Of a DNA stretch of 64,000 bases, positions 2,840 to 48,990 are shown piece by piece. Numbering within the stretch: the stretch's first letter is position 1; the number at the start of each line of letters is the position of its first letter. Under the pieces are notes generated by a model that was not told where the DNA came from, ran no database searches, and worked only from the letters and a program-made list of their open reading frames with translations. This DNA comes from Neopestalotiopsis rosae (Eukaryota > Ascomycota > Sordariomycetes > Amphisphaeriales > Sporocadaceae): contig JALGAS010000009.1 in the NCBI GenBank assembly GCA_023078685.1, forward strand, positions 2,170,001 to 2,234,000. The letters are read 5' to 3'. Position numbers and translations under genes: made by a program.

Positions 2840-3715
2840 GAAGAGTATCCCAGAACAGTATCCCAGAACAGTATCCCAGAACAGTATCCCAGAACAGTAT
2901 CCCAGAACAGAAGAATAACCCAACACAGAACAGTATCCCAATACAGGAGAGTATCCTGACCAAAAGAGTATCCCGGCACAGAAGAGTGTCCCAATACAGA
3001 AGAGTGTCCCAGTACAGAACAGCGTTCCACCACAGAACAGTATTCCAGAAGAGTATCCCAAAAGAATATCCCAGCACAGAAGTTATCCCAATACAGAAGA
3101 GTATCTCAACAACAACCACGCCTTCAACAGTCTAGAACGGACATCCTTCCGAAATACGACGATTGAATAGAACATAATGATCATTTCAAAACGGCACAAT
3201 CTCGACGTAGTCTTCTGCCCTGTATATCTGGGCAACTCTTCCGTGTTAGGATAATCTTCTTTATTGGGATACACTTCTGTGCCGGGATACTGTACTGTTC
3301 TGTGTTAGGATACAGAGACCATCAAAAGAATCATGTATTTCTATGACGATATCGAGTTTGTTTGCCCGGAATGTATCGGATATACTCCTCTGTGTTGGAT
3401 ACAGAGACCATCAAAGTTGGTTTCTTTTCTTTTCTCCTCTTCTCGTCTCTGAGCACGGACGAACCATATTTTGCGCTGACCTGTATGTACCCTAGCCAGA
3501 TCCACTTAGTATTGTCATTCAATGAGTAACTCCAGTCAGCCAAAATCGGCTCTGGTTGACAAACAATTTTCTACTGTCAGCTTGATTACTGTACAATACC
3601 TTTGGCTGGTCGAAGTACATACTCATTGATGACAATACCAAGTGGGTCTGGTTGATGTACATGAATGTCAGCGCCGGATATGGATCGTCCGTGCTCAAAG
3701 ACAAGAGAAGAGCGC
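2840..3715. repeat. Fold-back repeat element, copy A (minisatellite arms, core, terminal palindrome)
   Basis: The left arm at about 2845-3110 is a minisatellite of AGTATCCCAGAAC-type 13-18 bp units. A core at 3110-3235 contains CTTCCGAAATACGACGATTG. The right arm at 3235-3420 holds the same minisatellite inverted (TTCTGTGTTGGATAC). It is followed by a palindrome at 3451-3696 that begins GAGCACGGACGA and ends TCGTCCGTGCTC, with further partly paired flanks. The same modules recur at 45056-45425 and 48405-48990, and half of the palindrome at 23590-23790. The structure resembles fold-back elements, whose inverted arms are built of short tandem repeats. No transposase is encoded, so it would be non-autonomous if mobile. 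Long ORFs in it are repeat artefacts. Confidence 0.8.
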
Positions 3716-4348
3716 CAACAAGAAGAAGCCGCGTTCTCCCCTTCCCAATCCAGTCTGTCTCGTCATCCATAGTTGCGTCCACCACCGCCCCGGCTCCGAA
3801 TACCTCAAGTCCCCATTATCAGGAGTCGGTTCCCAATTTTCTCATTGCGGAGACTATCAGCGCCCAGCAGGATATATTTGTTTCTATTTCTTTGTCACTT
3901 CCGGATTCTTCTGTGTTGCTTCGTCCACTGCATTGCACTTGTCGCAGCTTTTCCAGTCTTTGCCGTACCCTACCATGCTACAGAATAAATCCAGGAGTTA
4001 CGACTGTTGGATCTTATCCTGGGTGGGGACCAAGGAATGTTACTGAGAGTGTGTTGCGACGTGCTCACGGGAACTGCTTGCGGTGTCAACTAGACGGACA
4101 TCAAAGTAACTTTGTTTCAAGTTTCTTCACTACAATCGGAAGTTAGAGACGCCATACTGCACAGACGGAGTCAAGGCTGCTCCTCGGCGCATTTTCTGAA
4201 GCCTGGGTGGGTTGGCTAATCCCATGTGTCTTCAGCACATGGGGGGTTCTTCTTTCTTGTTTTCCACCTTCTGTCCATTGATTTCTCCACTTTCAATTCT
4301 TGGGAGTACTGACGTCCTTAGTCTTTGTCTCTCGACGCAAGAACCGCA
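3716..4348. other. Intergenic stretch right of the fold-back element
   Basis: A frame at 3652-4146 runs out of the palindrome into this stretch but matches nothing I recognise. The sequence just before 4349 may hold the promoter of the next gene; no clear TATA box was seen. Confidence 0.3.
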
Positions 4349-5460
4349 ATGCCTATAACATCAACGTCCGCACACCTACGCCGCAGCGGCTGGGACATCA
4401 GAGAATGTTCTATCGATACAATACCAGTCAATCTGCGCATTGTCTATAGTCCGACCGAAAAGCTCGCCTACTTCCGCTTGCGTGCTGCTATCGATTTATC
4501 GACGAGTCCCTCGTTCCGTCACTTTTATCTGGATATTCCGCCCAACAAGATCCGACATCTGACATTGCGCTTGAAAGCTCCAAGATCAATTGACTTCCGC
4601 GTCTCTGCCACTACACTAATTGTACCCAAGTACCTTGAGACGCAGTCGATTACGAATACTGACCGCAGCATGCTTACCACTCTGTGGTCATTGACAGAAC
4701 GAAATACACTAGTTGTATAGCTGCCAGAGAATGTGGATGAGTTGTCACATCTTGCGGTCAAGGCGGACGTGTGGTGCAGACTGCCGACGATTTGTGTTTC
4801 ACGCCAGCCTAATCTTCCATAGTGGCATCGCCGGTCATTCCTCGAGCCTGCGCTCGGTCGAATCTCTCACCAATGACCAAAGACGACGAGTCTCCGCCAC
4901 CCACATACGTGGCTGCCGCATCACCCTCATCAGCGCCGCCACTATCACCTGTACTATCACCTATGCTCAATGGTAAGGATAGGAAACGGCCTCGCACAGA
5001 CTCATCCACGTCAGATTCATACCCGGACTATCGCGCATGGAAACATTTAGATCTCGCTGCAGGTGACCGCGAACGAATGATGGCAGAGCTGCTTCGTCGC
5101 GCAGAGCAAAGGGAGAGTGCCTGCAAAAAAGTTATGATCGACCTGGATGTGGAATTTGCGCGCGCGCAGGAGGTGATGGCTGAGTTCACAGAACTGAGCT
5201 TGAGCTCAAAAGCAGAAGGTAAAGCCGAAGCGTTGCACGAAGCCGGCGGCCAAGTTTCGTCGCCAGGGAAACAACAAGAACAGACAGGGCGATCACGGAT
5301 GTCCAATATCTTTGCATCTTCGTCAACAGTCACAAGCCCTAGGTCGCTCGCATCCGTCTCCTCTGATCTTTCGGGCCGTATTCAAGCTTATGTCGATAAA
5401 CAACTCGATCAGCTACGTGGAGAGCTTGCGGAGAATTTCGTCGACAATGAGTCAATGTAA
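4349..5460 (+). pseudogene. Broken coiled-coil protein gene (fungal conserved hypothetical)
   Basis: The ATG at 4349 opens a 124-codon N-terminal part containing IDTIPVNLRIVYSPTEKLAY and LDIPPNKIRHLTLRL. It is cut by TAG at 4718-4720, after which the same frame continues LPENVDELSHLAVKADVW. Near 4812-4824 the frame changes by minus one. The remainder (4822-5460, ATG at 4873) encodes a Pro/Ser-rich stretch (SPPPTYVAAASPSSAPP), a basic patch (DRKRPRTD) and a long charged helix that probably forms a coiled coil. The composition resembles widespread fungal proteins with a low-complexity linker and coiled coil. One nonsense and one frameshift suggest decay, though the frameshift could be a base-calling error. 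Function unknown. Confidence 0.5.
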
Positions 5461-5666
5461 ACAAGAATAATTTCTTGTCATCATGTATTTGTCTACAGTG
5501 TAACTATTCGAATCTTAGAATTTGTTTTTACGTAGCATCATCTGTTCGTCACCTCTGTCGATTTGTAGCAATACCTTTCGATGTTGGCTGCACATCTTCA
5601 ATTCTGACTACTGTTGAATCGGCGAAGACGACAGACATCTACTAAGAACAATGCGACTTCAGACAG

Positions 5667-5933
5667 TCACCGCTGCTTTCTCTTTTTCCTTGACTGTACA
5701 TAACGTACACGCAACCGACTTTCCTCTTCGTCCTTCTCCTCCTGCCAAGCTTTGACTGCGGCCGAGCTCACACTTTCCTGAGGCTCCAATGTCGCCTCCC
5801 ACCTGACAAGATACCAAGTATTCCCTCTGATCTGTTTCTCTCCGATGATCCAGCATGGATAATCCCGATTAGCTATGGCATCATTTATCTGTGCAATGGC
5901 ATCTATCTTACCAATAGTGGTAAGGTCACACAT
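5667..5933 (-). CDS. Small chromodomain-like protein
   Basis: The ATG at 5933 opens an 88-codon frame. Residues about 24-66 read CWIIGEKQIRGNTWYLVRWE and then TLEPQESVSSAAVKAWQEE, the order of a chromodomain: a beta strand with a YLVRW core, an acidic loop and a C-terminal helix. The usual GY..NTWEP segment is reduced to TLEPQE. The C-terminus is basic (SRKKRKQR), as in nuclear localisation signals. Chromodomains bind methylated histone tails, but the aromatic cage is not clear here. It lies just downstream of the dead MFS gene on the same strand. It could be a fragment. Confidence 0.4.
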   Translation of the reverse strand: MCDLTTIGKIDAIAQINDAIANRDYPCWIIGEKQIRGNTWYLVRWEATLEPQESVSSAAVKAWQEEKDEEESRLRVRYVQSRKKRKQR

Positions 5934-5940
5934 TACGTAC

Positions 5941-6701
5941 TTGTTTGCGAGCTAGAACTACTTGTAGGACCCTTGGACCCCAGCAGCGAACCTCGCCCAT
6001 AGCTGTTGGACTCAAATTGTGGACCGAAAACCCGCAAGCCGAAGGCATGAGAGACCTTAGCTCCGGCATTGCGGATGAAAACCTTGGTATCTCGAGTGTT
6101 TGTGCATTTGCGTTCAGTGGAGGGCCGGAGCAAGGGAGGCATGACCTGGCCATAAAAGCCCCAGACGATCCCTTGTGCAATGGGAGACTTCTGCGGGTGT
6201 GTGCACCGAATGTTATAGCAGAGAACACTTCAACTACTGTTAGCAGCGCAATTATTGACTAGATAGTAATATGACTTACAGGTGAAATAGAATTGCTGAC
6301 CCGAAAGCCATAAGCACACGACCGCAGACGAATGCGGATGAGTTCTTAGCAAGACCAGCTAACAAAGCCCCGAGCATGTTGACAACGCAGGCAGCAGAGC
6401 CCAACCACCTCAAGCTCGATAGGTTGACTTAGTCTCGAGCCATTGGCATCGCGGCGATCATGGCAAGTGGATAAGCAGTGTTAGTCAAGAACAACATTCC
6501 TGATAATCGGAACGTGTCTCGAATTGGCTGTTGAAGACTTGCGACATTGATGAGCTCGTAACCTGTCGAGTATCCTAGCATGCCATGTCCTTGTGATGTG
6601 GAGGATTTCCTACCGCGGACGAACGATAGCACCGAATTGCCAAGAGGCACTGCAAGCTTCATGTCAACAACTTCGTTTGCCGGGGCGAAATGGTTTGACA
6701 T
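5941..6701 (-). pseudogene. MFS sugar-transporter-like pseudogene (N-terminal half)
   Basis: The ATG at 6701 is followed by GYSTGYELINVASLQQP and then LFLTNTAYPLAMIAAMPMA. After an in-frame TAA comes LGSAACVVNMLGALLAGLAK with FVCGRVLMAFGSAI. This is the order of transmembrane helices 1-4 in fungal MFS hexose/lactose-permease-like transporters. The TAA sits where a Gln codon (CAA) is expected, a C-to-T change. A GTAAGT...CTAAC...TAG intron follows near 6282-6230. Beyond it the frames scramble and the sequence is lost before helix 6. The gene is truncated and non-functional. Confidence 0.6.
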
Positions 6702-7321
6702 ATCTCGTATGATGAAAAGATTTTTAAGGATGGTAAGTGTTGTAAAGGTGAGTGTGCTCCAGGAAGACGATGCAATGGTTCACAGGGAGACTTGAGGCCT
6801 ATTTATGCGTACCGCGTCAGTGAGTCCAATTGGAGTGTCTGATCGGCGATTGATTTCATGTACAGAAATCAGGTTGGGAGTGCCGGAAATACTTGCCGCC
6901 AACAAGATAACAAATTCTAAGCGCCCATTCCCCAAATATCTTGCAAAACCCTAGGACAAGTACTTTGTTCATACCATGTTCAGAACTATGGGGCTTTGTG
7001 CACACTGCTTGGCACGTTGGTGCAACTTCAAACTTTGAAAAGCGGGGAACTATGTCGACGCCCATGTAATGCAAATCCGTACATCTGGGTTACATGGGAT
7101 TGGGCGAGGAACGATACCTCCTTGCAGGATCATGGTTGTCTCGGTTGCGCACTAATATGTGATACGGGCGTGCGAAGGGTCTGAGCATCCTCAGGGATAC
7201 AAGTGACGATGAAGGGCCGATCATCCCATTGAACCAACAGTCACAAATAGCAACCGCAGGAACACAATCCATGCTAACTCTTCAGGATATTCCAAATGTT
7301 GAGATTATTACGACTCTAGCT
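6702..7321. other. Intergenic stretch
   Basis: Only short frames shared by both strands are present (for example 6856-7074 minus and 7229-7519 plus, the latter antisense to the F-box gene). Nothing is supported as a gene. Confidence 0.3.
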
Positions 7322-8607
7322 CTAACTGGTCGAATCGAAAGGCCATGGAAAGTTTCTTGCCTGGAGATAACAAGCCAAAAGGCGCCTCTGCTCCGAATCG
7401 CGTCTCAGATTCAAGAACAAAGAATCGCTCAAACTATGAATAAAACCATCTGCTTGCAGTTCAAGAGCCACACATTGGCATTTTACGTGTTCGAAAAACG
7501 TGTCCCATGTGCCAGCTAGTAGCGTGATATCTTGAATCTTGAGACGGCGCAATATGAAATGTCGCTCGATGAAATGCCTTAGATGAAAATCAGTAGCAGA
7601 TATGTTTCGGCAGTCCATCTCGCTCAACTGCGGCCAATGAACATTATGAAGTATCGTGTTTGTTTGGGAGCCCGAAGTACCAAGCTTGAGTAGGAGACTC
7701 CTTACGTTTGGAAAACGTCTTAAAAGTCAATTGATGGTTGCGGCGAAGCCGCAAACATAAGTAGCGAATCCATGCGCAGAATCTCGATATTTTTGGCTTG
7801 CGTACCGTCGTATGGTAGCAAATCCGTTGGATCCAAAGACCCTTTTAGCTTCAATTCTCGAATTCTTGGGAATTCGACAAGTACAGGTAGGGCCAATCGC
7901 ACACATGGTCCAACAGAGTCTTTGTACTGTGCAGACATATAGATCCGTCTTAGCAGTCCATGGTACTTGGTGTTTGCCGCTCGATTCATCCGCCATCGGA
8001 CATGGCCAATGGTAACTCGTTCCAATTTTGGAAGCAACGTCAAGATGTGTCTTATGACGCTTTGATCGACCTCAGCGTTCCGATGAGCTTCGTTCATGAT
8101 GAAAGTCCGATAATCCAGGAATGCCCGATCATAGTTGGATGTAGATTGATTGCAAGGAAAATACATCGGGTTGTTTTAGCAGAAAAGTAGAGGATGTGTC
8201 TCCCATGCTTCTCTTGTGCATATCGGCCATGTTGCGTGATTGATATGGATGCTTATGGTGTGCCGAGCAAATTCTGGATTGAGCTTCAAGAACTCAGTGA
8301 GTTCTTGAAGATGTTCAGATGTATTCAGTACTGCAATTTGACGGGCTTGTTGAGGGCGGGAAGCAGCCGCCCATGTTCGCCTGACCAATCGAAAGTTGGC
8401 CAAGTCACAGGCTGACTCGATTTCGGAGGCAATTGATGCCAGTATCTCGAATGGTAGAGTATTCCTGATATCTTGATGGCCACCTCTAATCTGCTGTACA
8501 AAAATAGCCCGTAATATAATGTTTATATAGAGACGCTCAATCACTGTGCCCGAAAGCTGTATTATGCTAAGCGCCCTACATGTAACAGAAAGCAGTACAA
8601 TATACAT
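7322..8607 (-). pseudogene. F-box protein with leucine-rich C-terminus, interrupted
   Basis: From the ATG at 8607 the frame reaches a typical fungal F-box, LPFEILASIASEIESACDLA followed by NFRLVRRTWAAASRP. F-box proteins select substrates for SCF ubiquitin ligases by binding Skp1. At 8178-8176 a TAA replaces an expected CAA, and the same frame continues YFPCNQSTSNYDRAFLDYR to 7720. There one T is missing (A run 7732-7735 on the plus strand). The next frame restores RRFPNVRSLLLKLGTSGS and continues to a stop at 7322. The C-terminal part has the Leu-spaced pattern common after fungal F-boxes. Substrate unknown. One nonsense plus one homopolymer shift: either decayed or partly mis-sequenced. Confidence 0.65.
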
Positions 8608-8747
8608 ATTCACATTTCCAATTGTCTAGCGGGCGTTTATTTTAGTTTATTCATGCTACATTTAGAAACAACAAGTCTCAATCCATCTAATCGTCCATAT
8701 CATTTGTCTGTCATGGGGATATCGTCGAGTTCCAACTCCTTTCCACA

Positions 8748-9173
8748 TTAATTAAGCCAAAGGGGCTGAATTGGGGTAGAATATCCAGTCATAGCTGTAG
8801 GGGTCGGTGGGCTGTCGGGACAAGACCGTTTCGTCTCTTTATCTAGTGCAGTAGACTTCTCCCATTTAGAAAAATTGCGCTTCCAGAGACGTTTTGTACG
8901 TACCAGCTTTTCTTTAGTCTCTCTGAGCCGTTCCTTAAGGATGCTAGCTGTCAAGTCTTCCACCGATGCTTTCAATCTGTCAAGCTCGGCTCTGAGATCT
9001 TTGAGTTGAGCCTTGGACTGCACGTATGCTTTGAACCAATGGGTAGATGTGGAACGGTAATGGGAGATAATTGCAGCTGTGTCATCGAAACGAATCAAGT
9101 GATACTGCCAAGCACCGGCCCAGCGCGGATCACAAGAGCATAGACCTCTGTTGTCATTGAACTGACCATCCAT
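8748..9173 (-). CDS. Hypothetical coiled-coil protein, 141 aa
   Basis: A single uninterrupted frame runs from ATG at 9173 to TAA. Residues 1-45 include a CSCD motif and aromatic residues. Residues about 46-110 are a long charged helix (LKDLRAELDRLKASVEDL) with heptad-like Leu spacing, so a coiled coil is likely. The tail is Ser/Pro-rich (CPDSPPTPTAMTGYS). There is no signal peptide or membrane segment. I do not recognise the family. The frame is complete and its composition looks coding. Confidence 0.5.
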   Translation of the reverse strand: MDGQFNDNRGLCSCDPRWAGAWQYHLIRFDDTAAIISHYRSTSTHWFKAYVQSKAQLKDLRAELDRLKASVEDLTASILKERLRETKEKLVRTKRLWKRNFSKWEKSTALDKETKRSCPDSPPTPTAMTGYSTPIQPLWLN

Positions 9174-9414
9174 TTTGTCGTTGCTGTTTTTCTTTTCAAA
9201 CTTATCGGGAAGTTTCTGGCTTGGATGGAAAGCAGATGAGAGATTGAGTATTAGGGGAATGAAATTGTTTCGAAACAGGTGCGACCGGGAAGTTATTTAA
9301 ATACTTATTATATTTATTACGAACAAAGAGCGGTAAAACTACATGAATATCCGAAGATCCGTATCTTGATTGTATGTCTCCTGGTCAGCCCTTGAAATGT
9401 GCCCAAACACAGAC

Positions 9415-9837
9415 TTAGGATGAAATGGTTCTTGTACCACACGCTCCAGTCAACACGCTTGTGACGGTTTCCATCATTGTAATGGTTGTAGCAATAGTCG
9501 CAGCAACGACAGCTGCAGTCGTTGTGTTGGCCTGGCTGGTTGTAGTTGCCATCGTCACAGATGTGCTCTCCGCGTTTGTTGGAAGGTGGCTTGTGTTTGA
9601 ACTGGGTTATCTCTCGGATCAGTTGGACCAACAACAACGCCGCTGGCGTTAGACGCTGTCAGGGTGGTCCAGCTATGGCCAGACGCATCTGTCAAGGTAC
9701 TGGTCGTATCATCAACCTTGTCAGTGGCAATTGTAGTAGCGTAGGTTGTCAGCAGGGACGTTGATACGCTCGTCAGGGTTTGAGACGATGTCGTCACGGT
9801 GACAAGAGTAGTTAGGGTTTGGACAACACGAGACATG
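9415..9837 (-). CDS. Ser/Thr-rich protein fragment (mucin-like), one frameshift
   Basis: The frame from about 9962 encodes TTLVTVTTSSQTLTSVSTSL and then TTYATTIATDKVDDTTSTL, typical of O-glycosylated fungal surface or stalk regions. The nearest ATG is at 9837 (MSRVVQ). The frame stops at AHL, but the neighbouring frame carries on in the same style: NAESTSVTMATTTSQANTTT then ATIATTITMMETVTSVLTG, ending at 9415. The join needs one extra T near 9583. No signal peptide is visible at this start, so the 5' exon is missing or unrecognised. Its 5' end abuts the truncated NLR fragment on the other strand. Confidence 0.45.
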
Positions 9838-9927
9838 CATCCAACTATCCCGGATCTGTTGGTCTCCATCGTAATATTCGATATCCCTTCATCGATTACT
9901 GCATTTGGAGCCCCACTGAAAGGATAG

Positions 9928-10641
9928 ACAGACAAGCAGACTGATATCTCAAAGACCAACAATCATTCCGAGGAGCTACGAAGTCTTGCTAAAGATGCTC
10001 GTCGTTTCCTTCTTCGGTATAAAGGAGGCGTCGAACTTGCTCCACTACAAACGTATACGTCAGCCCTGATTTTCAGCCCCACTAATAGCTTAGTCAAACA
10101 GCTATTCCATAAAGAGTCCCCTGGTTGGATAGAGTTAGCACCAAAGGCTGAGGCGGATTGGAGCGCTTGCTTGCAGACGCTCGAGGGCCATTCTGGCTAT
10201 GTTTACTCCGTGGCGCTCTCGCCCGACGGCCGCCGGCTGGCGTCCGGCTCCGGCGACAAGACCGTCAAGCTCTGGGACGCCGAGTCGGGCGCCTGCCTGC
10301 AGACGCTCGACGTTGACCGTGTTATTAGCTACCTCATATTCGACCCAGACCATCCCTCTCGACTTATGTCAAATGTAGGCGACATGAATTTCGATTCATC
10401 CTTTATCGATTTGGCTCCACTAAATAAAGTTAAATTTTCAAGCGACTATGGCCAAAACAGATATAGCATTAGTACTGATAATGTCTGGATTGTCGAAAAC
10501 GGTACTAATATGATTTGGTTACCACCAGAGTACCGTCCTTCAAACTCAAGAGTAGCAAGATCAATAATTGCAATTGGATGTGGATCGGGTCGTGTTTGGG
10601 TGACACGATTTGCTGGGATGGAGTTAGTTAAGCACAAATAG
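9928..10641 (+). pseudogene. C-terminal fragment of a NACHT/WD40 NLR with a single WD repeat left
   Basis: The open frame starts after a stop near 9927 with no start codon. It first carries the segment that precedes the WD array in fungal NWD proteins (DARRFLLRYKGGVELAPLQT, then TYTSALIFSPTNSLVKQLF). One WD40 unit follows: LEGHSGYVYSVALSPDGRRL to SGSGDKTVKLWDAESGACLQ. It ends with the conserved post-WD tail, including WLPPEYRPSNSRVARSI and GSGRVWVTRF, with TAG at 10639-10641. The NACHT domain and N-terminal effector are absent. Full-length relatives are STAND receptors in non-self recognition, with many near-identical WD units. The WD unit is much richer in G+C than its flanks. Confidence 0.8.
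10168..10310 (+). repeat. GC-rich WD40 unit with repeated edges
   Basis: TTGCAGACGCTCGAGGGCCA at about 10169 recurs as CTGCAGACGCTCGACG at about 10297, one WD unit apart. Such direct repeats are what remains after unequal exchange in an array of near-identical units. Confidence 0.6.
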
Positions 10642-11131
10642 TTTACGGTTGTGAGCGCCGGCAGAGGCAGCAGGTGGACGGACCTCAGGCGCTGACTGTG
10701 AGCGGCAAAGTCGATCCAATCGCCCCTCGAACAGTATGTTTTCTCTGAATTCGCTTGATTCTGAAAATGATATAGCTTTTGAGTCATCTCTATTATTTGG
10801 CTGGCAGTGGTATCCTTCGAGGTTTATCATATTAGGTACCTCTCGAATTTGATTTCACGAAGATGCTTTATAAGAAGAATACAAACATATGTTGGCGCAA
10901 GGGAGCACTCTGCGGGGCTGACACCTAGGAACCACGCCCCCCAATCAGCCACTAATGTCGGTTGCCAGCAAGGGCTGCTAAGATGTCAGACTGAAGAATG
11001 CTGTCGTTCTCAGCTAAGCAAGGTTTGTAGCTGACCATTGACTTGCCCTGCTATCTGGAAGAGATAAAAATCCAAGAAATTCTTCTTCCCACGCTCGTCA
11101 AGAAGCTGTTGGTTTTGTCAATTCATGGTTT
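10642..11131. other. Intergenic stretch
   Basis: Overlapping short frames on both strands (10446-10787 minus, 10807-11034 plus) show no family signature. Nothing supported. Confidence 0.3.
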
Positions 11132-11551: not shown

Positions 11552-12980
11552 TGAACGAGCATACCCCCTTCCTTCATAGCTGCTTGCAACTAGCGGGTCT
11601 TGATCCCGCTTTTTACTGACAGAACCTGAATTGCGGGGGAATCATTAACTTAACTCAGGTCTAGATAACTACCATACCGCCGCCATCTACATCTAGCCCG
11701 CAATAATCGAGGTGCGCCAGAGCTTTGAAACTACATAATCATAGCAGCCAGGTCACTTCTTTTGCGATGAGGATAGCGTGCATACTCAATATATTATCCT
11801 TCCAGCTTTGGGCATAAATATTAGAAAATAGTAATAGCCAAAACCACGGGTCTCAGTAGCCCAATGCATGCCACACTGAATGCCGAGTGCAACAGTCGCT
11901 CTCGCTTATCTTCACGACTGCAAAAAGCAATCTCCCAGCTCTGGGTGGCGTTGCGCTTGCCCCATACGTCTCCATGTTTGCCTTTTGGAGGTGCCATAGT
12001 GCTATGGGATAGACGATGCCGATTCAAAAGTGGTTTGCAAAGAGTACAGCAGTGGCCCGTGCACGAGACTTCAGTACTACGAGCTCGGCGAAACTTCTTT
12101 GGAAATTTGAGAGCATTACCGGAACAGGCGAACCAAGCACTGCGTATATATACTGTGAAAATAACTACTCGGAAGAGCAGTGGTCAAGATGACTTGAACG
12201 CATCAGCACAATCGAACCAAGATACTTTTTCGTCTCCATTTTCCGCCTCGGAGTATGGACGATCCATATTTGGTGCTAACATCTACTATGTGTACTATTT
12301 TGATCTTGCACGAGCCCAGTATTGTACAAGGTAGTGTGTCTTCTTCTTAGCCATTTTCCGGTGTAACTACAGCATTATAAATGTATTCAAAGGACAATGT
12401 GGATACAATACAAAAAGAGGGCCAGATTTTATTCAGTCACGCTTGTTCGTCCATCATTTGATTTTCATGGCGAAAACGAGCAGGTAACTAATAAGAAATT
12501 GCGGACTCAAGATCCAAAAGGAGAGAAATAGATCTGCTCCAAATGGTACGTATCCCACGGGACAGCCCAGATTTCCACGAAATTCAATGTATTACACTCC
12601 AGGTCAAATTGTGGACGTCGACTCGTCCCATACCATGCGGTTTTGCTTAGCCCCCTTCAAGCTGTCCATATATTGATCTTGAAGTACCGTTTCAAGGAAG
12701 GAATGGAGCAAACTACGATCAAAGACCATTATAGGATGTTCAAGATCCAGACCAAGGGCGGTCCAAAAAGCTTTTTCTGTCTTCAAAAGCCCTAAAAAGC
12801 TGAAAGGATCTGACGAGTTTGTCCATTTGCGCTCGTATTATCCTACGAAAACTTGGCGTCGAGTAACGGAATAATAAGGATTTGTTTTTCCGCAATCATG
12901 GTTATACACTATATATTCTATTGGGAGGCTTGCAGTAGCAATATTGTGATCAGACCTTGTTACATCTTTCCGTACTCTCC
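11552..12980. other. Stretch with only weak coding signals
   Basis: On the minus strand 12836-12604 is open and reads like a C-terminal exon (PFSFLGLLKTEKAFWTALGL ... SLKGAKQNRMVWDESTSTI), but it has no start and no recognised family. A minus frame at 11821-12027 contains MAPPKGKHGDVWGKRN. The plus frame 11864-12334 is unrecognised. I support none of these as a gene. Confidence 0.3.
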
Positions 12981-15956
12981 ATGGCTCAATGCAAGCATTC
13001 TGATTGGCTACGTCTGATACGTCACGAATGTGGTTCCCAGCCTGAAGTCACGGACAGACTGGAGGAAGTTGTATGCCAGCTTCACTGTCCAAATCAGACT
13101 TCTCCTGGTATAGCCCTATTCATTGGAGACGAAAACAAGAATGATGCTCTGCTGGAATTCGGGATACAAAAGTGTCCTTCTGAAAGAAGACACCCAGGCT
13201 GGCGGGCTCAAGTCCATCATTCTGAATTTCTGGGACCTACTGGGAAGTCAGTGCCTCTCGTTATTTTCAATACTGGAGCGTCCACAAAATTGCAACCGGG
13301 CAGGCTGAACAATACACCAAGATGCCATGAGACGCGAAACTACGAGATGACACCAACCATCGGCGAGAAAAGGCCGGTAGATGTGATCGATCACGTATAT
13401 TGCCGCTTGCTGTTCCCATTCGTCGATGTCGTATGTATTTTTGTGAACGACATTGGAGGCTTGAATCACTTGGCTTCTCGGCTCCGGGCATGGCTCAGGT
13501 ATGGTCGAGCAACAACTGCTCAAAGCGGATTGAGGCTGTTCCTGATCTTTGACGAGCTTAAAGACGGTATGGAAGTATCGATCCGTGAGATCTTGACAGC
13601 AGACGCCAAAGGAATGATACCGCCAGTGTTTCAGGACTATCATGTCTTTGATCTTGCACGTCCACCTCAGCAGACAAGGAGATCATCCCAAGAGACGCCA
13701 CAGAGAAGACTTCACAACGAACTGACAAGGTGTCTCGTTTCGGCGCAGCGCAATCGTACCAGAAACGGAGAGCGTTTCTCAGCACAACACCTTTCCAAAT
13801 TTCTTCAGTACGCTATGGATGAGCTTGTTAATGTGGATAGGAGCCCTCTAGATCTTGTACGCATGTCCAGAATGATGCATCCCGTTTCTCCCGATCTGAG
13901 TTCGTATCTCAATGCTTTTCTCCAAGAGGTAAAATCGGCCGAAGATGTGGAGATATTCGCAATTCCGATGATCATCTCCAGCTTCATTCTAGACCAGTAC
14001 CCGCCTAACATGCATCGTAAGTCTCTCGTCAGACGCATATTCGGGAGGAGTAATTAACACGAACAGCCTTCCGCCCTGAACAAGTCTTTCGTGTACTCTA
14101 TCATGATGCCTGCCAACGTTTGCTCCAGAAAGGTCAACGAGGTCCGCAGAGAACGATCGGCTACAATATTCCCACAAACTTCACGGAGCTTGCTGAGGAG
14201 GAGATGATCAAGCAATATAAACAATACAGGAGATCGATGTCGGCTGTTACACATCACCGAACCATGATGAACTGCTTTCGGCATAAGTGGGCTCAGATAC
14301 GCTCCGACGACGTATGTTTGTGTTGCTTGCGACGGCGACCGCAGTATTGCTTGCCCTGTAGTCATAGTCTGTGTGAGAACTGTGTTCAGGTGTTTGGCAA
14401 GAACGAGGACGATATGCCTTGGACATTCGTCGTGGGAACGTGTCCTCTCTGCAGTCAAGAAAATAGCAGGGCAATCATTGGTGTCAAGCCGCCGACGGCG
14501 AGCATCCGGCTCCTCAGTATTGATGGTGGAGGAACGCGGGGCCGAGCGCCACTTGCATTTCTTCAGACACTTCAGGACCGACTACAGCTCCCAACGCCGG
14601 TGCAACACAATTTTGACTTCATATATGGCACCAGCTCTGGTGCAATCATAACTGCTGTGTTATATGCGCTGGATTGGAACATCGAGGAATGTACCGAGTA
14701 CTTCGATATGTTCGCGCGTGTAGCTTTCCAGCCGCGGTGGTGGTGGTTGAAGGTGCCGTTCTTGTCTGCCGTCTTACAGATGGTGGCTTCCCTGCTGGCC
14801 GACAGCCGATACTCGAGCAAGAACCTAGAAACAATCTTGCAAGATGTCTTGGGGACACGCAGTCTTATGGATTGTACTAGCGGGGCAGCTCGAGGCACCA
14901 AACTTGGAATTACGGTGACTACCATCCGCGACGCACGTGCCTATGTCTTCACAAGCTATAATGGTGCTGGAGAGCAACGGCATGATACAGGTATTCCCCA
15001 GTTTCTTTTCATTTCTTCTCCTCTGTTTCACTTTCTTCCTATCGCTTCTCTTCTCCGTCCTATATCTCTCTATGAAGCGCCATGTTAACATATCATTCAA
15101 GACTACCAGGTGCTGTACCCGAAGAACGGCCTAAGCCGAATCCCGCTGTGGGAAATGTAGGATGATATTGCAATCACAATCACAAAAAGTAAAAGTAAAA
15201 GGCTGATATCCTTGTAGCGTGCGGTGTAGCACAGCTGCTCCTTAGTAGGTGAAAGGAACCGCTGTTGTTTTGATATTACATTCACACTGAGTCTTCAGTC
15301 AAGCTGACGTTTGGTAGCTATTTCAAGGTGAAACACATTCCAGGCGTAGGAACATTTCAGGACGGTGGTCTGATGTTCAATAATCCTGCATCCATCGCTG
15401 TACGGGAAGTAGCAGCTCTGTTCCCCGATGCATCGGAACCCGGACTCGTCGTATCCTTGGGAACGGGCTCGTCGAGGCCATCGAACCCCCCTCCGGCCAC
15501 GAACGAGAGACATTTTCTTCGGGATTCATTTCCTGCCCGCGTCTATCGGGCGTTTTGGAGTAGCGGGGATTCGAAGAGAGTGTGGCAACAGCTTGTTGAC
15601 CATACTAAAGATGACCCCAGCAATGTCTTGTTTCGTTTCGATGTCGAGTACGACGGACGTGCTCCAGCCTGGATAGTGTTGCGGAGATGGAAGATATCGG
15701 TCGTCTCGCGCGCGAAACTATCCAGGATTCCCCGATGCTATCGAAACTGGTTAGCGCTGTCGTCATTGGTGGCGATACCGGTACCGGTCTCGATGGCGTT
15801 AGTGCCACGGACTTGGAGCTACAAGATCTCGAGGCTGCCAGGATCATTGACCGCGACGGTGGCGAGCGTACCGATCCCGCCAGGAATGTCATTTTCAAGA
15901 GGACGGAGGTCAAGGTCCAGATTGTGGACGCCAAGGACCACCACCACGACAGATGA
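12981..15956 (+). CDS. RING-finger patatin-like phospholipase (five exons, one frameshift near the 3' end)
   Basis: Exons 12981-14016, 14067-14990, 15102-15156, 15218-15244 and 15318-15956 join in phase; exon 4 is only 27 nt. Residues about 90-340 form an N-terminal domain shared with fungal patatin proteins (HVYCRLLFPFVDVVCIFVND). Residues 429-474 are a RING-type zinc finger (CLCC ... CLPCSHSLCENC ... CPLC). The patatin domain follows with DGGGTRG (oxyanion loop, 498-504), GTSSG (nucleophile Ser, about 535) and DGG (catalytic Asp 696). Both catalytic residues are present, so lipid acyl hydrolase activity is plausible. After DGRAP the frame shifts by minus one at the CC run 15668-15669; the next frame (LDSVAEMEDIGRLARETIQD) reads on to 15956. 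Patatin domains are common effectors in fungal NLR and allorecognition proteins. Confidence 0.85.
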
Positions 15957-23589: not shown

Positions 23590-23790
23590 ACAGAGACCAT
23601 TAAAATTAGTTAGCTCCTTGTTTTGACGCTCTTCTCTTGTCTTTGAGCACGGATGGTCCATATTCTGCGCTGACCTATATGTACCTCAGCCAGACCCACT
23701 TAGTACTGTCATCGATGAGTACTTCAGTCAGCCAACACCGGCTCTGGCCCAAAGTATTGTTGGAGCTGACAATACTAATTGCTCGTCATC
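23590..23790. repeat. Fold-back repeat, half copy D
   Basis: ACAGAGACCATTAAAATTAG leads into GAGCACGGATGGTCCATATT at 23645 and continues to CAGCCAACACCGGCTCTGG. This matches one arm of the palindromes at 3451-3696 and 48756-48990. The other arm and the minisatellite are missing. Confidence 0.7.
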
Positions 23791-36499: not shown

Positions 36500-36530
<31 letters not shown>

Positions 36531-36742
36531 GGGGGGGCTCTACGTAGTAGGCGTCAAATGACTTCTGAGAGAAATAGTAATAGACTGTAATGATGGACGC
36601 GGTCGCTGCCGGCCTTGCAGGAAATGGCCAAGATGGGTAGCCTCATAGGGCTGCCTATAAATCGATTTTCGTGTTGCTTGCTTCCGGGAAAAAACAAATG
36701 TCATGAAAATTCATGTTGATGTCGGTCTCGGGACCGGTGCAG
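36233..36742. other. Stretch around a T19-G28 homopolymer
   Basis: No gene. The compound homopolymer occupies 36491-36537. The frame that reads through it (poly-Phe, poly-Gly) is an artefact. Confidence 0.5.
36491..36537. repeat. T19-G28 homopolymer tract
   Basis: Nineteen T are followed directly by about twenty-eight G. Such a G run can form quadruplexes and stall polymerases, and its stated length is unlikely to be exact. Confidence 0.9.
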
Positions 36743-40985: not shown

Positions 40986-43651
40986 CTCTTTTTCGCAATA
41001 TCAAGACGACCAAACAGCATGTCGACGAGTGTTGGATAGTGCGAAACCAGAATGTTGGCGAGGGCCGAAACTTGGTGGATATTTACAGATTTAGTCGTGT
41101 TGAATTGGGGAAAACTGAGATTTTTTTTTTTTTTTTTGGGAACAAGCAATCCTCCAGCCACGGCTGCAGAACGCTCATAATGGTCCCTCGCTGGGTGTCA
41201 ACAAATCGTGGTGCTCCACCGAACTGTAATTGGGCTCATCAAAGATCCAGCGACGATTTAGTGGCCACTTGGAAAGGCCTGTCGATTGTGTGGTCTATGT
41301 CGCGCAAGACGATCAGGGGGTACCTATGGGTACGCTGTTTGTCCCCGAGAGCTCCCGATTCGAACAGAGAAACCCCGGCAAGCCGAGGCCAGGCAGTGCC
41401 TGACGCAGTACCTGCAGCTGCCGATCGCGCCCCGCTGCAGGGTCGCATTTTATGATAAAAGGACTAGCTCAAGGCAAATGCGCAATTCTTTTAGGACCGG
41501 GAATAGAGTTCACTAATGGGTTTTAGAAGATTCGTAGCGATTCGTAGCTAATTCGTAGCTGGTCAATGTTACCCCTGAAGCTGGACCGACGACGGCAAGC
41601 ACACTGCTAACGAGTCATGCATGTCCAAAACTAACCGAAAATTAGTCAGAATTAATGGCCGAACAATCAGAACGCTTGCGAAAATCGAAGATGTTGTCAG
41701 CAATAATTTCAAGGTACTGGACAGGATAGATCGACCTGGACTCAAGCCGCCCGGTAACAAACAAATCATCGAAAGTCTGATTCTTGGAAGACTTGTTGAG
41801 GCACAAGAGGTTATGTAAGAGCTGACAGATATCAGTGATCAGGCGGACATACTACCGAAGAAAGATGTGACCATCTTTTGTATTGTGGGTGTCAATGAAC
41901 CTCTTGTATGCCTTTCGAGCAGAGTGATCTTGATCATTCTCCCGATATAAGTCTGCTACAAATTTGCTTCATCACCTTTTTCGAGCCTGTTGTCGCCCAT
42001 AGTGTTTATCTGCCTGCTGTCGAGAATCAAAGACGTTCTTTGGACAAATGGTTTCGCGCGCTTGCCGGTAATGCTGAGGCCATGATACTTTTGTGCTTAA
42101 CACACTCACTTTACCACAGTTCTCGTAATCACGTGCCATAGCCGTTTTAAGTCTGACATCGTGGTCCTCTCAAATAAATACCACCTGACTCAAAACTTCT
42201 GCCTTGGGAACATCCTGCATTCTGCCTTGAGTTTACAGTAGTTTTGTAAAGATAATGAAACCTACTACAGACCCTGGTGTGACAACTCTGTATTTCCGAA
42301 TTTACCACTTGAGTACAATCCAGCTCCATGTTTTCCTTTAACACGAAACTATGTTGGGCACGTTTTCAAGCTTTTGGCAGAATTGGGTCATTATTATGGG
42401 CTTAAATCGGGATACTATATCGAACAACATGGCAGGCAGCGATCAGCTGGTGCAACTAAAAGTCGTTGTCTAGTGGCTCGAAGCGAGGTCGCTATCCCGT
42501 CCTCACCAATTCTCACTTTCGAAGCACAAGGCCGGTCACCCATCTATGTCGTTGATCTTCTTCGTAGGTATTGTTGCGTCATATAGTTTCGATAACGTTG
42601 GAAATTCTTACTGCGGCGATCAAAATTTCAGAGTAAAATATAGGCAATCCGGACTCTTTCCATACTGGCCATCGGCTGTCGTGCTTAGACTGAAAGTGAT
42701 CAGTGACAACATCTGCGTTCCACTGCCGAGTGGGCGCCAGGGGACAGAATGAAGGACGTAACTTTGCGCTTCAGTATTCAGCCGCCTTTCTCTTCTAGCT
42801 AAGTGATTACGTAGCACAGCGCGTGATAGGCACGGCCTTAGCCGTGGCCTGATGCACAAAGATATACCGAGTCGCATAAGTCTCAGATCGTCCGGCCTAC
42901 CAACTCATCGAAGGCAATTGTTCTCGTGTGATCGTCGCAAAGGTGTAGGCTCAATTAGGCAATTGCCATAGCAGAAAATTCCGTAGCAAAAAGTTATCCA
43001 AAGCGGAAGTTGTGATACTCATGCAGTACAGCACCATGCTATCCTTCTTCTTTTTTTGACTCGCCTGAGTACCCAAATCCCCGCTCAGGTTCAACGATGC
43101 GACTAGATGCAAAATTAGAAACGTCATGATCCTATTTTGGCTTTTGAACGCCTGTACATTCGTGTCGAGGGTCGCCGAAGTCATCAAGATATTCATAGGT
43201 GGGAGAAAATACCACAGTCTTGATACTTAACACACAACAAACCAGCACAATACATTTATCCAGTTTTCGATGGCTCCACTTCTCTATTTTCGGAGTCTCC
43301 CAAGTTATATCCTTCCAGAAGTGAATCCACTTTAACCCTTGTGGTATTAATAGAGCCCCTGTTCACAACTTCCTGTGAGGCTGGGCGCTCTTTACCGCTT
43401 ACAGTCATGGACGAGATATTTCGTTTTCGGTATAGCATCCTCTAGAGCGTTCGCCTGGGGCATGTCGAAAGGATACTAGAATCTCGATGCTGCAAGACCT
43501 TTCACGAGCTGGATCAGGACATTTAAATTCAGAATCTAAATAGATAGTTATAGCGTTACACAAATGGTAGATCTCTTCGATTCGGAGTTTTCTTCACATA
43601 CCACTGCCTCTCTTCAATCATCTAGACAAGACATTCCCAAGCATCGACACA
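40986..43651. other. Long gene-poor stretch
   Basis: Contains a T17 run at 41121-41137, a short ATTCGTAGC triplet repeat near 41528-41560, and a 65-codon plus ORF at 41621-41818 (MSKTNRKLVRINGRTIRTLA) that could be a real small protein but matches nothing. No recognised gene. Confidence 0.35.
41121..41140. repeat. T17-GGG homopolymer tract
   Basis: Seventeen T directly followed by GGG, similar in kind to the T19-G28 tract at 36491. Confidence 0.85.
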
Positions 43652-44048
43652 ATGCCTGATGCCAATCCATTGCAGTTTACAAGGACCGACTCTGTTCCGG
43701 CATACAGTGCGTTCAGAGGTGACTTATCCGAAATGTTATGGTTGAGCCTAACTAACATATCGTCGAGGAGTCGAAGAGTATGGCGACGATACAAACGAAT
43801 CAGACCCGTCAGAAAGATCTACAGACGGCTCCGACGATGGCGAAAGCCTCGCAGATTTCGTTGCCGATGACACGGAGACGACCGTTTCGGAGGACAGCGG
43901 CGATGGCGAAAGCCTTTCCTATGGCAAAGAAAGCACTGATGCAATGGATGATTTAGAGATGATGAAAGATGCACTCGAGAGTCTAGAAATCACTTGCATC
44001 AAGTTGCGAAATGTGGCTGAGAGACTGGAAGGGATGCGACTACATTAG
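43652..44048 (+). CDS. Small acidic coiled-coil protein (two exons, 115 aa)
   Basis: Exon 43652-43718 and exon 43768-44048 join in phase across a 49-bp intron (GTGACT...CTAAC...GAG). The product begins MPDANPLQFTRTDSVPAYSA, has a strongly acidic, Ser-rich centre (DESDPSERSTDGSDDGES-like) and ends in a heptad helix (LEMMKDALESLEITCIKLRN). It has no signal peptide. I do not recognise the family; the acidic stretch plus coiled coil suggests a partner-binding or chromatin-associated protein. The intron was chosen because it removes the only stop and keeps phase. Confidence 0.5.
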
Positions 44049-45055
44049 AATGCTGACAGTTGTGTAATGGAGTACGAATGGCAGCGCTATATCTAGATAC
44101 GTTTTCCCATAAGATATTGTCGCCCTATCATTCACAAAGCTGGATTGTATTGAATGGGAGCCCTGGATACTTGCCAGACTTGAGAGTCACATGGGTTCGA
44201 TTAGACGTGCAATCACTTTCGGTTTCAACGATTCGGTTGACATCAATGCTAGTATAAAATGTGTTCAGGCAGCGCCAACTATTGTAGGTTTGCATCTACA
44301 GTATCTGGTCTCGTTGGCTCCGTACAGACGTTCCTTCGTTTATGTGGAGACTGGGAACACTCTTTCAGGGAACAAGCCAGAGATGTGTGTGGAGTACATA
44401 GGCACCAACCAAAATTTGTATTGAGAGAACGCTCGAGAGCGAAGTGGTCACGTACTGACACTTCCCCTTACCCGTCGTGTATTTTACACGACAATCGCAC
44501 CTCGCCGGAAACTATTCGGATCCTGTTGTCAAAGTCTCTAGTGCATCGCCAGCAGATATATACAATATAGTTATCGAAACGCACAGTGGTGACTCACCCC
44601 CTCCCAGTGTACGTCTGCTCGTTGAAGCCTCCACCCAAACCGGCCTGACTCTGAATAGCACTCATTCCCACGCAAATCATGACGTCCAGTCGGTCTGCGA
44701 GGCCCAGCACAGCTTGCTATGCGCGCTTTGCTGGCAGCGGCGTCTTTTGACTAGGACTAAGATAGGCGTGTCCGTACCCTTGTGAAGAAACAATTTTATA
44801 AATGGCTTCTTGCTTTGGGAATTGAGAAGTAACTCACAAATATTGACATAACAATTAACACAACCTGCTCAAGTCCCCGAGATCTATTTACCTTCAATCT
44901 AGCAGACATGACCTGATCCGGTAGATAGTGACGATGAATGAGCTCGTACGAAAAGTAGTCGCCCTGGCATAGGGAAACCGGGTAGTTTCAACACAACCAT
45001 GCAAAAGTTTAATCTAGTGATCATGTTAACACCTTACAGTACCACCAAGTTTTTC
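44049..45055. other. Intergenic stretch
   Basis: Overlapping short frames (44191-44785) without recognisable motifs. Confidence 0.3.
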
Positions 45056-45425
45056 AGAAGGACATCCCAGAACAGTATCCCAACGCAGAAGACATCTCAC
45101 CACAGAAGAGTATCCAACACGCAAGCAGAAGTATATCCTAGAGGAGTATCCCGGTACAGGACAGTAGTCCAGCATGACAGAGTGCCCCATCAGAGAAGAT
45201 AATTCCAATACAGTAGAGTATCTTGACAAAACTACTCCACCTCTAACGGTGTAGAATGGACATACTTCCGAAATACGACGATTGAATAGAACATAATGAT
45301 CATTTCAGAGTGGCACAATTCCGACGTAGTGTTCTGTCCTGATGATCGGCGGGGAGGAGGGGGGGGGGGGGGGGGGGGGGGGGTCCCCTAGATGGGATAC
45401 ACTTCTGTGGTGGGACACTCTTCTG
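45056..45425. repeat. Fold-back repeat element, copy B
   Basis: A left minisatellite arm (45056-45230; AGTATCCCAACGCAGAAG-like units) is followed by a core at 45235-45345 nearly identical to copy A (CTTCCGAAATACGACGATTG then ATAGAACATAATGATCATTT), a G25 run at 45359-45383 and a short inverted minisatellite (GGGATACACTTCTGTG). The terminal palindrome of copies A and C is absent. Confidence 0.8.
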
Positions 45426-46423
45426 TGTCTCTGTGTTGCTGCCAAATACATCCGTCAACCCCCTGCTATCTACTGCATGATCCAGATACCACATAAAGCA
45501 TCACCACCTACCTATATTTTGGTTCCACTGCAGGACCATGGCAACAGAGTCAATTGTCCATTCCGGTGCAGAAGTCTCCCGTCTGTCCGTGTTTCTTGCC
45601 CAACTACTGCAGCATGCATCGACCAAATCCTTCGTTAATTACTTTACGAAGTAGCTAAATGAGTCTGGTCAAGAGTTACGACTGACCAGCGAAAAGGCCA
45701 AGCGCGTTCGGTAAATCACTTCTGGATGCTTTCAAATCTTTGCCGGGTCATGATACCAGTTAGACTGACAGGGCACGCACATTCTACGAGGCTCCACTAC
45801 CATAGACATGGACAGAGTATGACCGGGTTGAGCACAAGAGACGGAGGAACTCGCGTCCGTCCGCTTCTCATGTTTTGACTACATAAGCGAAGAAACACTA
45901 AACAGCCATTTTCCAGCATGGGCCCATAACTACTGACCGAATTCTCTATGTGAAGGGGGAAAAAAACGGCACTTCCATTGATGTAAATTGACTTCCAGTC
46001 GCATACCCAATACTGTTGAATCGTTCGTGGCCATGTGATGCCAGAGATTTTATCACCTTCGTGAAACACGCCAGGTCGAGCGAGCTTCATATGAGCTTCA
46101 TATGGAAAGGCATTGCAGTGATCAGATTATTCTGTTGATCGTAGCTTTCTACATAAAACTTCGTACTATATGTCGAGCTTAGTTTCTCTCTTGTAGCGAA
46201 AGTCTGAAAAGTCGCACTATTCATTAGATCAGAACCTAGAAAATCTAAAACGAAAGTCTATCGTCCTAGATTCATACTAATTCGCCGACAAATCAATGCT
46301 TCTATACATATACAACGTCCACTGAACAATGGCATATGGAATATCGACGGTTTAATCGAAGTTCTCCTTGAATCTGCTCTGTGTCGTGGTGCTGATCATG
46401 GAACGTCTGACCCATGACTTTAA
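45426..46423. other. Stretch without a recognised gene
   Basis: A minus ORF at 45797-46090 (97 codons, ATG; RPGVFHEGDKISGITWPRTI) is complete but unassigned. GCTTCATATGA is repeated in tandem at about 46085-46102. Confidence 0.3.
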
Positions 46424-47266
46424 GCGTATTTATGTGGGGGTGCAGCTGATGAGGCGGGCGAATATGCTCGCACCGAAATTCCCTTTCATCCATTCTATGC
46501 GACTGCTGCGGAATCCGAGGTAGTCCCTCGATTTCTATTCCGTATTTTCTCTAGAGCTTCTGCTGGGAATGATGATCAGGACTGGATGCGATCTGAGGCT
46601 ACCATACATGGCAACACGACAAATATAATCGATGCTGAGGAATCGCATGTGGCCATGGCCCTGAATGAGCACCTTCGATGGTCTACATCAAGATCATTCC
46701 CCGATCCATTCATCTCGTGGACGACTTCACTACTCTCCGCTATTCAATATTCAATATACAAACATAGGACAGAGGGTACAGAGTTGAAGGACATTCATCT
46801 TGCTGTTATTGATACGATATTGTTCCCAGACGAAACATTTGTACGGGATTTAACTCTTATGAAGAGATTTGAAGATTCTGTGCCAAACAGTCATATGATC
46901 AAAATCGGCGGCCAATCCAAACGCTGGAGTGATCGCGGACTTCGAGATTTTCGAGATTTTCGCAGTAAGAAACATACAACACTATCCGGAAGTTACTACT
47001 TTGGCGAGTATCTCGCTCGAGGACAACTTTGCATCAAGAATCGCTCATCGGTTATGCAATGCGACAAAATTGTCAACGAGAACCTATATCAATTGGAGCC
47101 GCAATTCGAGTCTGCCTTGAGTTCGAGGGAAATTCAATGGGCTCATGCAGTGATTGCACTTCGCGAAGCTTTCTACGGAAGCGACGATCGTCCAGCAATT
47201 GAACAGCGCGAGATCGTGGCTGCCACGCTAGTCTCCCTCAATTTTCCAGTCGATATCACATCATGA
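46424..47266 (+). CDS. DUF7587-like fungal protein, 5' end unresolved
   Basis: The frame is open from 46424, with its first ATG at 46586 (MRSEATIHGNTT). Conserved sequence starts earlier, however: VVPRFLFRIFSRASAG lies before that ATG, so a 5' exon or an upstream start is missing. The body reads EHLRWSTSRSFPDPFISWTT, LLSAIQYSIYKHRTEGTELK, IHLAVIDTILFPDETFVRDL and SYYFGEYLARGQLCIKNRSS. I recognise this order from fungal proteins annotated as DUF7587, of unknown biochemical role. No frameshift lies in the 840-base frame. Alternative: another family with the same FRVFS...SWTSS...YFGEYLS signature. Confidence 0.6.
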   Translation, partial: AYLCGGAADEAGEYARTEIPFHPFYATAAESEVVPRFLFRIFSRASAGNDDQDWMRSEATIHGNTTNIIDAEESHVAMALNEHLRWSTSRSFPDPFISWTTSLLSAIQYSIYKHRTEGTELKDIHLAVIDTILFPDETFVRDLTLMKRFEDSVPNSHMIKIGGQSKRWSDRGLRDFRDFRSKKHTTLSGSYYFGEYLARGQLCIKNRSSVMQCDKIVNENLYQLEPQFESALSSREIQWAHAVIALREAFYGSDDRPAIEQREIVAATLVSLNFPVDITS

Positions 47267-48404
47267 TGATGGCAAGCCTATTAGCGCTTCGTCCACGCCA
47301 AGCCACGAACACCGGGTTTATCGATCGCATCATCAATATTTATGCTGGTACGGGAATGCTTCAATCTCTAGTTATGGTCTGATCATGTAACATGATAACA
47401 CAATATTTAGATGTGGCTAGAAGAAATTGACAAAGCATACATCCGCCGACTACACAAGGAAATTGCCGCCTTGCGGAAAACCTTGAGAGGACGAAAGGAT
47501 ACGTAAAATGTCATCATCATGTCCCGTGCCGACGCGATACTTCCGATAGGGTTGAAGCCTTTAGATCTCGAGCTAGAAGCAATCGTGTTACACAGTATCG
47601 TCTGCTTATATTGTAAAATCAAGCTGCTATGGTTGTTAATGATACGCAATGTGGATAGAATGTATTGCAGTACTCGATGATTCATTTTATAATCCGTCCA
47701 AATCTACATATTCCTCATAGACCTAGCTATTCCGTTGCAACACATCCCACCTTATTGTGGCTAGTAAGATACCTATGTCGAGTATTTCAATCTCTGGGAA
47801 TATGGAAATGAAGAATTAAGCGATACACATTTATATGAGAATCAACGGCGCGGTCAGCTTGTGAACCATGCATTCAACATTTCTTATAACAGTGATGGAG
47901 GCCGATGCGTCCAACCATTAATGAACAATTTATTCGGGGAAATCCCTGATTCGCGTAGGGAAGATAATGTATACGCAGTGATGATAGCCCTGTGACTTTC
48001 CATGTGCGGTTTTATTTCATGTGCGCATCGCATGTGGCTTGTATAGACACAAGAAAAGGTACAACCGAAGTCAAAGGGTACAAAATTGTGGCGCTAACCT
48101 GAAGTGCCAAACGTCCCGCACAGGCTACAGCGGAACTGGAAAGGACTGAAGGCCATTACCGGAAATGGCACTGCAAGGAGGGAAAATAGTTCTTTTTCTC
48201 TTTTTAATTTTAAAAGTCTTGGAAAGGACCAATGCATATTTTTTCGTAGCCGAATACGGCCATCAGACCCGCATCGACCACATCACGATTTTGTGGTTGT
48301 TGCTGCATTTACAGTCCAAATTCCAAGAAAGAGGCATTGTAGACTCTGCGGACGAAGGAGCATTCGATTAGATACTTGCAGTGGATAGCTGCCATCATAA
48401 TTAT
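47267..48404. other. Intergenic stretch
   Basis: Open frames at 48104-48388 and 48165-48371 overlap and carry no family motif. Nothing supported. Confidence 0.3.
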
Positions 48405-48990
48405 AGAACAGTATCCTGGCACAGAACAGTATCCCATTACAGAAAAGTACTACGGCACAGAAAAGTATTCATCACAGAAGAGACATAGAATAGTGTCCTA
48501 CAACAGAAGTGTATCCCAACACAGAAGTATATCCCACCACAAAAGCATATCCCACCACAGAAGAGTAGCCTAGATAAACAGGACAGAATACTACGTCGAG
48601 ATCGTGCCACTCTGAAATAATCATTACTAATGTTCTATTTAATCGTCGTATTTCGGAAGGATGTCCGCTCTAGACTGTTGGAGGTGGAGTAGTTGTTGTC
48701 GAGATACAGGGACAATCAAAATCGGCTTCTCCTTGTTGTCCACATCTCGTCTTTTGAGCACGGACGATCCATATCTGGCGCTGACATTCATGTACATCAG
48801 CCAGAACCACTTGATATTGTCATCAATGAGTACTTCGGCGAGTCAAAGGTACAGTAATCAAACTGACAATAAAAAATTGCTTGTCGACCAGAGCCGATTT
48901 TGGCTGGCTGAAGTACCCAAGCATGACAGTACTAAGTATGTCCGGCTGAGGTACATATAGGTCGGCGCAAAATACGGGTCGTCCGTGCTC
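48405..48990. repeat. Fold-back repeat element, copy C (core inverted)
   Basis: A minisatellite arm (48405-48575) in the same orientation as copy A is followed by the core in reverse complement (AATCGTCGTATTTCGGAAGG at about 48645). The terminal palindrome at 48756-48990 begins GAGCACGGACGATCC and ends GTCGTCCGTGCTC. Relative to copy A the core is flipped while the palindrome keeps its orientation. Confidence 0.8.

Follow-up and report, generated by a model that had tools for sequence, protein, structure and literature searches.

A TA-flanked MITE and a foldback-like core-and-arms repeat in duplication-rich blocks of the Neopestalotiopsis rosae genome

The window analysed here is a 64,000-bp stretch of the Neopestalotiopsis rosae genome (C17:2170001-2234000, contig JALGAS010000009.1; genome 53.77 Mb, 17 contigs), in which three places, copies A, B and C, share a minisatellite and a conserved core, and two of them, A and C, carry a palindrome nearby. 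The initial annotation had taken these parts for one fold-back element with an invertible core. Our results confirmed the repeat blocks, which greatly exceed chance expectation, but showed that they do not make up a single element: the palindrome is a miniature inverted-repeat transposable element (MITE) of ~330 bp in its own right, belonging to a family distinct from the core-and-arms repeat. The explanation we favour, with a probability of roughly 0.68, is that of two nested families, in which a younger MITE with a TA target lies in an older foldback-like repeat, the latter having multiplied mostly in segmental duplications and been reshuffled via its arms. The older family would have been a non-autonomous foldback-type transposon with a ~108-bp core between inverted arms of 13/18-bp units and longer outer arms in some copies; the present core copies would have multiplied largely inside segmental duplications, recombination in the arms would have reshuffled them, and the MITE would have inserted later at TA sites, some of them within the arms. 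This explanation starts from what was directly observed, namely the MITE ends, their TA sites, one exact empty site, two separate families, duplications, shuffled flanks and confinement of the repeats. From the earlier interpretation a dispersed core family on the foldback plan is retained; the membership of the palindrome, the defined ends and target duplications and the inversion proposed for copy C are not.

A search of the whole genome with the core and the palindrome, as the initial annotation had suggested, found many copies elsewhere, with 41 matches of the core motif and 64 of the MITE end, and the minisatellite unit was matched 423 times. Minisatellites match readily, which would favour chance or low-complexity similarity as the source of these matches, but the same patterns read backwards, which served as genome controls, gave 0 matches each, and such similarity is a practically negligible explanation.

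The palindrome is a MITE of its own

The L-numbered loci are a sample picked for carrying the repeats under study and form a subset of the two genomic blocks described below. The MITE was matched 46 times in these loci, 29 times near full length and 19 times with both ends recognised. A TA stands on both sides in 17 of the 19 two-ended copies (the exceptions are L051 and L053) and 18 of them measure 328-333 bp; the element is near-palindromic, has terminal inverted repeats and a uniform short length, and its termini are mostly TACAGAGACCATCAAAATTGG on the left and TACAGAGACAATCAAAATCGG on the right. A recognisable end was missing in 10 of the 29 near-full-length matches, some of which have one different right flank in common. 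The exact empty site was found by comparing L047 with L041 and L044, where its MITE is absent at a TA in the minisatellite and the flanks are 85-94% alike. The junctions of the L047 MITE within the minisatellite read ...GGATA/CAGAGAC...GTCTCTG/TACTCTTCTG, and L041 continues through the same site uninterrupted as GGATACTCTTCTG. The left arm of L005 also carries a MITE that L036 is without, both flanks being ~98% alike; the array length differs there and the junction is not base-exact. The sites compared for L056 were ambiguous and the expected TA was absent. In nine of the 20 loci compared, the palindrome occurred with no minisatellite found beside it. As its termini are independently flanked by TA and one empty site is exact, the palindrome is not part of the element to which it had been assigned.

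Among the 19 copies, C>T plus G>A substitutions amounted to 170 and T>C plus A>G to 164, and the bias of repeat-induced point mutation (RIP) was not seen. The MITE was presumably mobilised by a transposase of the Tc1/mariner type. Genes of DDE_3 transposases occupy the same blocks; paired MITE-like termini were not found at the two DDE_3 elements inspected (L061 and L062), which showed isolated matches only, with up to 3 mismatches, and these two were not supported as parents of the MITE.

In the window, the palindrome of ~240 bp described by the initial annotation was found again in copy A (3451-3697) and copy C (48755-48990), as part of the longer ~330-bp element with TA ends. The MITE of copy A (3402-3732, plus strand, outer limits by eye) lies at a TA outside the right arm and has a degenerate 3' terminus; a stray fragment of a MITE terminus, TA-adjacent too, is located at 3313-3327 on the plus strand (from repeat comparison, positioned by eye). 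The half palindrome reported earlier is a truncated MITE on the plus strand at 23591-23747 (match 23645-23747, 5' end by eye, 3' limit approximate). Beside the core of copy C, a MITE that has lost its distal terminus lies at a TA (48707-48992, minus strand, outer limits by eye), and its insertion point is that of L004 and L012. Copy C had been read as a reversed core next to a palindrome that is not reversed; the core does lie on the minus strand, but the longest and best match of the palindrome is also on the minus strand, so the second part of that reading fails. That the MITE stands on opposite sides of the core in copies A and C reflects separate insertions.

Anatomy, orientation and origin of the core-and-arms repeat

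Fifty cores of ~108 bp were found in the sampled loci, including the three of the window, and 35 aligned cores had a mean column identity of 87%. The shared minisatellite and core were confirmed in copies A, B and C, with cores at 3111-3218 (plus), 45230-45337 (plus) and 48583-48694 (minus), respectively. In copy A the core is bordered by a left minisatellite arm of 13- and 18-bp units (2834-3111, plus) and an inverted right arm (3219-3313, minus); further to the left are the inner portion of an A-type outer arm (2767-2825, plus) and the dispersed repeat block F (2285-2765, plus), which lies inside a stretch where L029 and L002 differ by an insertion/deletion. Copy B has a left arm (45048-45231, plus) and a remnant of the right arm (45393-45427, minus), which, as noted in the initial annotation, makes its arms inverted like those of copy A; a 33-bp G run (45351-45383, 87% match) lies between its core and right arm. 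Copy C has a minisatellite arm on the core-right side (48405-48571, plus) and, on the same side, part of flank type C (48350-48404, minus, stretch by eye). The anatomical plan of foldback-like arms made of short tandem repeats around a conserved core was thereby borne out: inverted arms of 13/18-bp tandem repeats surround a middle domain, and in copies with both arms these run outward in inverted orientation with either core direction, which is what the reversal of a copy with inverted arms would give. Outward of the minisatellite, the arms of some copies are prolonged as a further inverted repeat (L029; copies with A-type flanks left and right). The idea that the A arm ends sharply on its outer side at TCTGCTTC was considered and rejected, as composite flanks beyond it are common to several copies, and no duplication was visible by eye at this point in L029. 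Among core substitutions, counted after exclusion of 7 degenerate cores (at most 78% identical to the majority), C>T plus G>A made up 118 of 424, which is not RIP-like. The core as an RNA was also rejected, on the basis of the weak RNAalifold consensus (-1.7 kcal/mol and 6 pairs over 35 cores) and of the absence of an Rfam match in the window at gathering thresholds.

The sequences outside the arms belong to a limited recurring set (A, B-E, C, D and F). Both flanks could be typed in 17 copies, as A-A' (3), A-B' (3), A-C (1), A-D (2), B-C (6), B-D (1) and B-A' (1), which represents 7 of the 8 left-by-right combinations, or 6 of 8 when the degenerate core L037_6244 (the B-A' case) is left out. 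In a filtered pair comparison, 121 pairs had one flank in common and 18 had both. This shuffling of flanks fits recombination in the arms. An apparent swap of the core between the near-identical flanks of L005 and L036 (86%) proved to be an alignment artefact, pairwise alignment giving 93-95% in two windows.

The orientation of the core was assessed by turning all copies so that the core reads forward and counting flank C within 750 bp. Flank C lay right of the core in 16/16 adjacent cases, window copy C included, and flank D in 3/3; two more placements of C were to the left, in L007 (inward, 504 bp away) and at L004 core 2536 (where C belongs to the neighbouring core 2016). Flank A was found 17 times on the left, 12 times on the right and 4 times facing inward, and it occurs on both core sides because A itself is inverted. 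One relative orientation was kept in each of the similar pairs L004-L012, L038-L039 and L005-L036. Many copies are duplicates of one another, so these counts are not independent events. Because the inverted arms look alike either way, core orientation is chiefly a record of the direction in which a copy lies, and copy C is best explained as a copy reversed in its entirety. An inversion of its core by arm recombination, as had been proposed, is not supported, flank C being on the usual side of the core.

Several results weigh against our explanation of two nested families, and they concern the arms and the core direction as well as the origin of the core family. The blastn alignments break at arrays of unequal length, which inflates the apparent breakpoints in the arms. 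Flank B stood to the left of the core 13 times and to the right 3 times (L001, L003 and L011), block F with the same arm junction is found on different sides of the core in window copy A and L002, and an all-pairs test using both flanks gave 31 pairs with the same and 13 with the opposite relative orientation. These three results, together with the existence of inverted arms, would suit one composite fold-back element whose core inverts by recombination between the arms. Such an element is nevertheless very unlikely, given the TA-flanked ends and exact empty site of the palindrome and the counts of 16:0 for flank C and 3:0 for flank D. The three reversed-B copies look like one multiplied event, being interrelated (L001-L003 left flank 96.5%; L001-L011 84% over ~1 kb). 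Nine of the 13 opposite pairs come from within one locus (4 pairs of two cores) or involve L026 with its neighbouring opposed cores (5 pairs), leaving L005-L035, window A-L009, L001-L009 and L003-L035. Block F was set aside as a decisive marker of orientation because it sits in the insertion/deletion difference, and its matches in L021 and L035 may be low-complexity. An invertible segment would be seen in either orientation with the same unique sequences on its two sides, and this was not the pattern for C and D, as against 13:3 for B, the window A/L002 junction and the last four opposite pairs. The F-arm junction and the 13 opposite pairs make rare historical relative inversions likely.

As for the origin, the target-site duplications sought for the core family were not above chance at the outer ends of the minisatellite arms: with mismatched-pair controls, a 9-mer with one mismatch allowed was found in 1 of the 34 testable copies (of 50) against 0.97 expected, the test covering these ends and not those further out in long-armed copies. 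Defined termini with a target-site duplication were not found, transposition of the core family is therefore unproven, and the family is for this reason not filed as a foldback member, though built like one. A clean empty site for the core element was not found among 8 junctions inspected of 99 candidate gap pairs; two of the 8 span the core (L027 vs L037; L034 vs L012), and the better of them, L027 vs L037 (925 bp, long flanks), showed at most a weak 5-bp overlap and no convincing duplication, L034 vs L012 giving no clear junction. A Mutator-like element (MULE) was not found in the blocks, with 5 matches in the genome and the nearest at C17:1.37 Mb, the search for a transposase of foldback relatives covering the MULE type. 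We infer that the core family began as a non-autonomous foldback-type DNA transposon. It is possible, though distinctly less probable, that the core-and-arms repeat was never a transposon but a module with minisatellites in a region prone to segmental duplication, and that it spread solely through duplication, conversion and the repair of breaks at the arrays. The missing target duplications, the strong segmental duplication, the combinatorial flanks and the restriction to two blocks all agree with a module, but inverted arms of tandem repeats on either side of a middle domain correspond to the foldback plan, and some copies, window copy B and L040 for example, have beside their arms sequence that is matched rarely or not at all in the compared loci, which are a subset of the blocks.

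Two duplication-rich blocks and their contents

The block limits, drawn from the repeat matches, are C1:1.44-2.78 Mb and C17:1.43-3.21 Mb, which is ~3.1 of 53.8 Mb or 5.8% of the genome. All 41 core-motif matches fell in C1:1.44-2.78 or C17:1.43-3.16 Mb and 63 of 64 MITE-end matches in C1:1.48-2.78 or C17:1.46-3.21 Mb, the remaining one being at C1:7.04 Mb. For the minisatellite, the 100 matches listed of the 423 were all in the blocks, including all 64 with at most 1 mismatch. The blocks also held 12 of the 14 DDE_3 transposase matches over the cut-off and 15 of 21 DUF7587 rows. HET domains (4 of 150 scored rows, 350 candidates) and DDE_1 (7 of 31 rows) were not concentrated there, which indicates that the search did not favour these contigs.

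The sampled loci of the blocks are mosaics of duplications with ~77 to 99.5% identity, such as L038/L039 (98.4% over 5375 bp), L020/L049 (99.5% over 3201 bp) and the patatin region of the window (12390-15034), which is 96.6% identical to L041 (C17:2502300-2508300). The 100% match of L012 and L021 was rejected as a duplication, as it is an 801-bp overlap of the same DNA. In L035, a segment of a RING-finger gene (577-1481 and 5131-6035) forms an inverted duplicate of 99.8% identity flanking a core copy, and relatives of this segment occur in L024, L038 and L039. A 2062-bp segment of L043 (5568-7631) is missing at window position 50049-50050.

Transposase matches with internal TAA or TAG, that is RIP-like stops, were found at 0 of 17 places in the blocks vs 19 of 32 outside (Fisher P 2.6e-5), rows of the same place being merged by hand; one match in the blocks had two TGA stops. 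RIP may have spared the blocks or pre-dated them. A tentative extension, to which we give a low probability, is that the inverted minisatellite arms serve as joints for recombination that exchange and amplify cassettes (the core, C, A, B-E and D), and would thereby drive the growth of a duplicated, RIP-escaping 3-Mb compartment on two contigs, with mobile elements of its own and expanded gene families. The near-exclusive confinement of the repeats to duplication-rich blocks without RIP-like transposase stops makes them a test case for the origin and growth of such a compartment. A recent foreign origin of the blocks was not supported by the single gene inspected, the HET protein of the window, which is 86% identical to its Pestalotiopsis fici counterpart. 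Open reading frames of the window also matched patatin, Hsp70, WD40 and DUF7587. Elsewhere in the window there are a 28-bp G run (36510-36537) and a 12-bp tandem repeat of 14.9 copies with 99% match (56724-56902).

Comparison with known systems

The miniature impala elements (mimps) use a TA target and have a Tc1/mariner partner, and their termini differ from those of the MITE described here, which also differs by its length of ~330 bp. In the excerpted reports (PMC3599309, PMC5579170, PMC11856433), mimps are MITEs of Fusarium described as lying on accessory chromosomes, and they resemble our MITE as small non-autonomous elements with inverted repeats.

Tm1 is a Mutator/foldback family of root-knot nematodes (PMC3169594), and according to the extracts of that report its arms consist mostly of 13-15-bp tandem repeats in variable number around a conserved middle, and one Tm1 group is ~1 kb long without obvious coding potential, in all of which it is like the core family. 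The Tm1 arm unit CGATTCAGTATCCGC in the same extracts has CAGTATCC in common, by eye, with the unit here. By contrast, Tm1 is described in these extracts with 9-bp target duplications and 7-bp terminal motifs, with empty sites and with members that encode a putative transposase, and none of these features was found here. Tetris, in the sections seen of its description (PMC4079207), shares with FB and Galileo, which are cited there, tandem repeats within inverted arms and a non-coding middle domain, and it is also similar in its modular rearranged copies and local amplification. With its 220-bp units, target duplications of 8-10 bp and three recognisable complete copies, Tetris differs from the core family, which has 13/18-bp units and in which no target duplication was detected.

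The initial annotation knew of no named fungal family of this plan, and the titles and opening lines of abstracts from a limited literature search agree with it in showing none; a limited search of titles on Pestalotiopsis repeats likewise gave nothing on this plan. The portions of the literature consulted place foldback elements whose arms are tandem repeats in animals and plants, and a fungal foldback-like family with minisatellite arms would widen this range.

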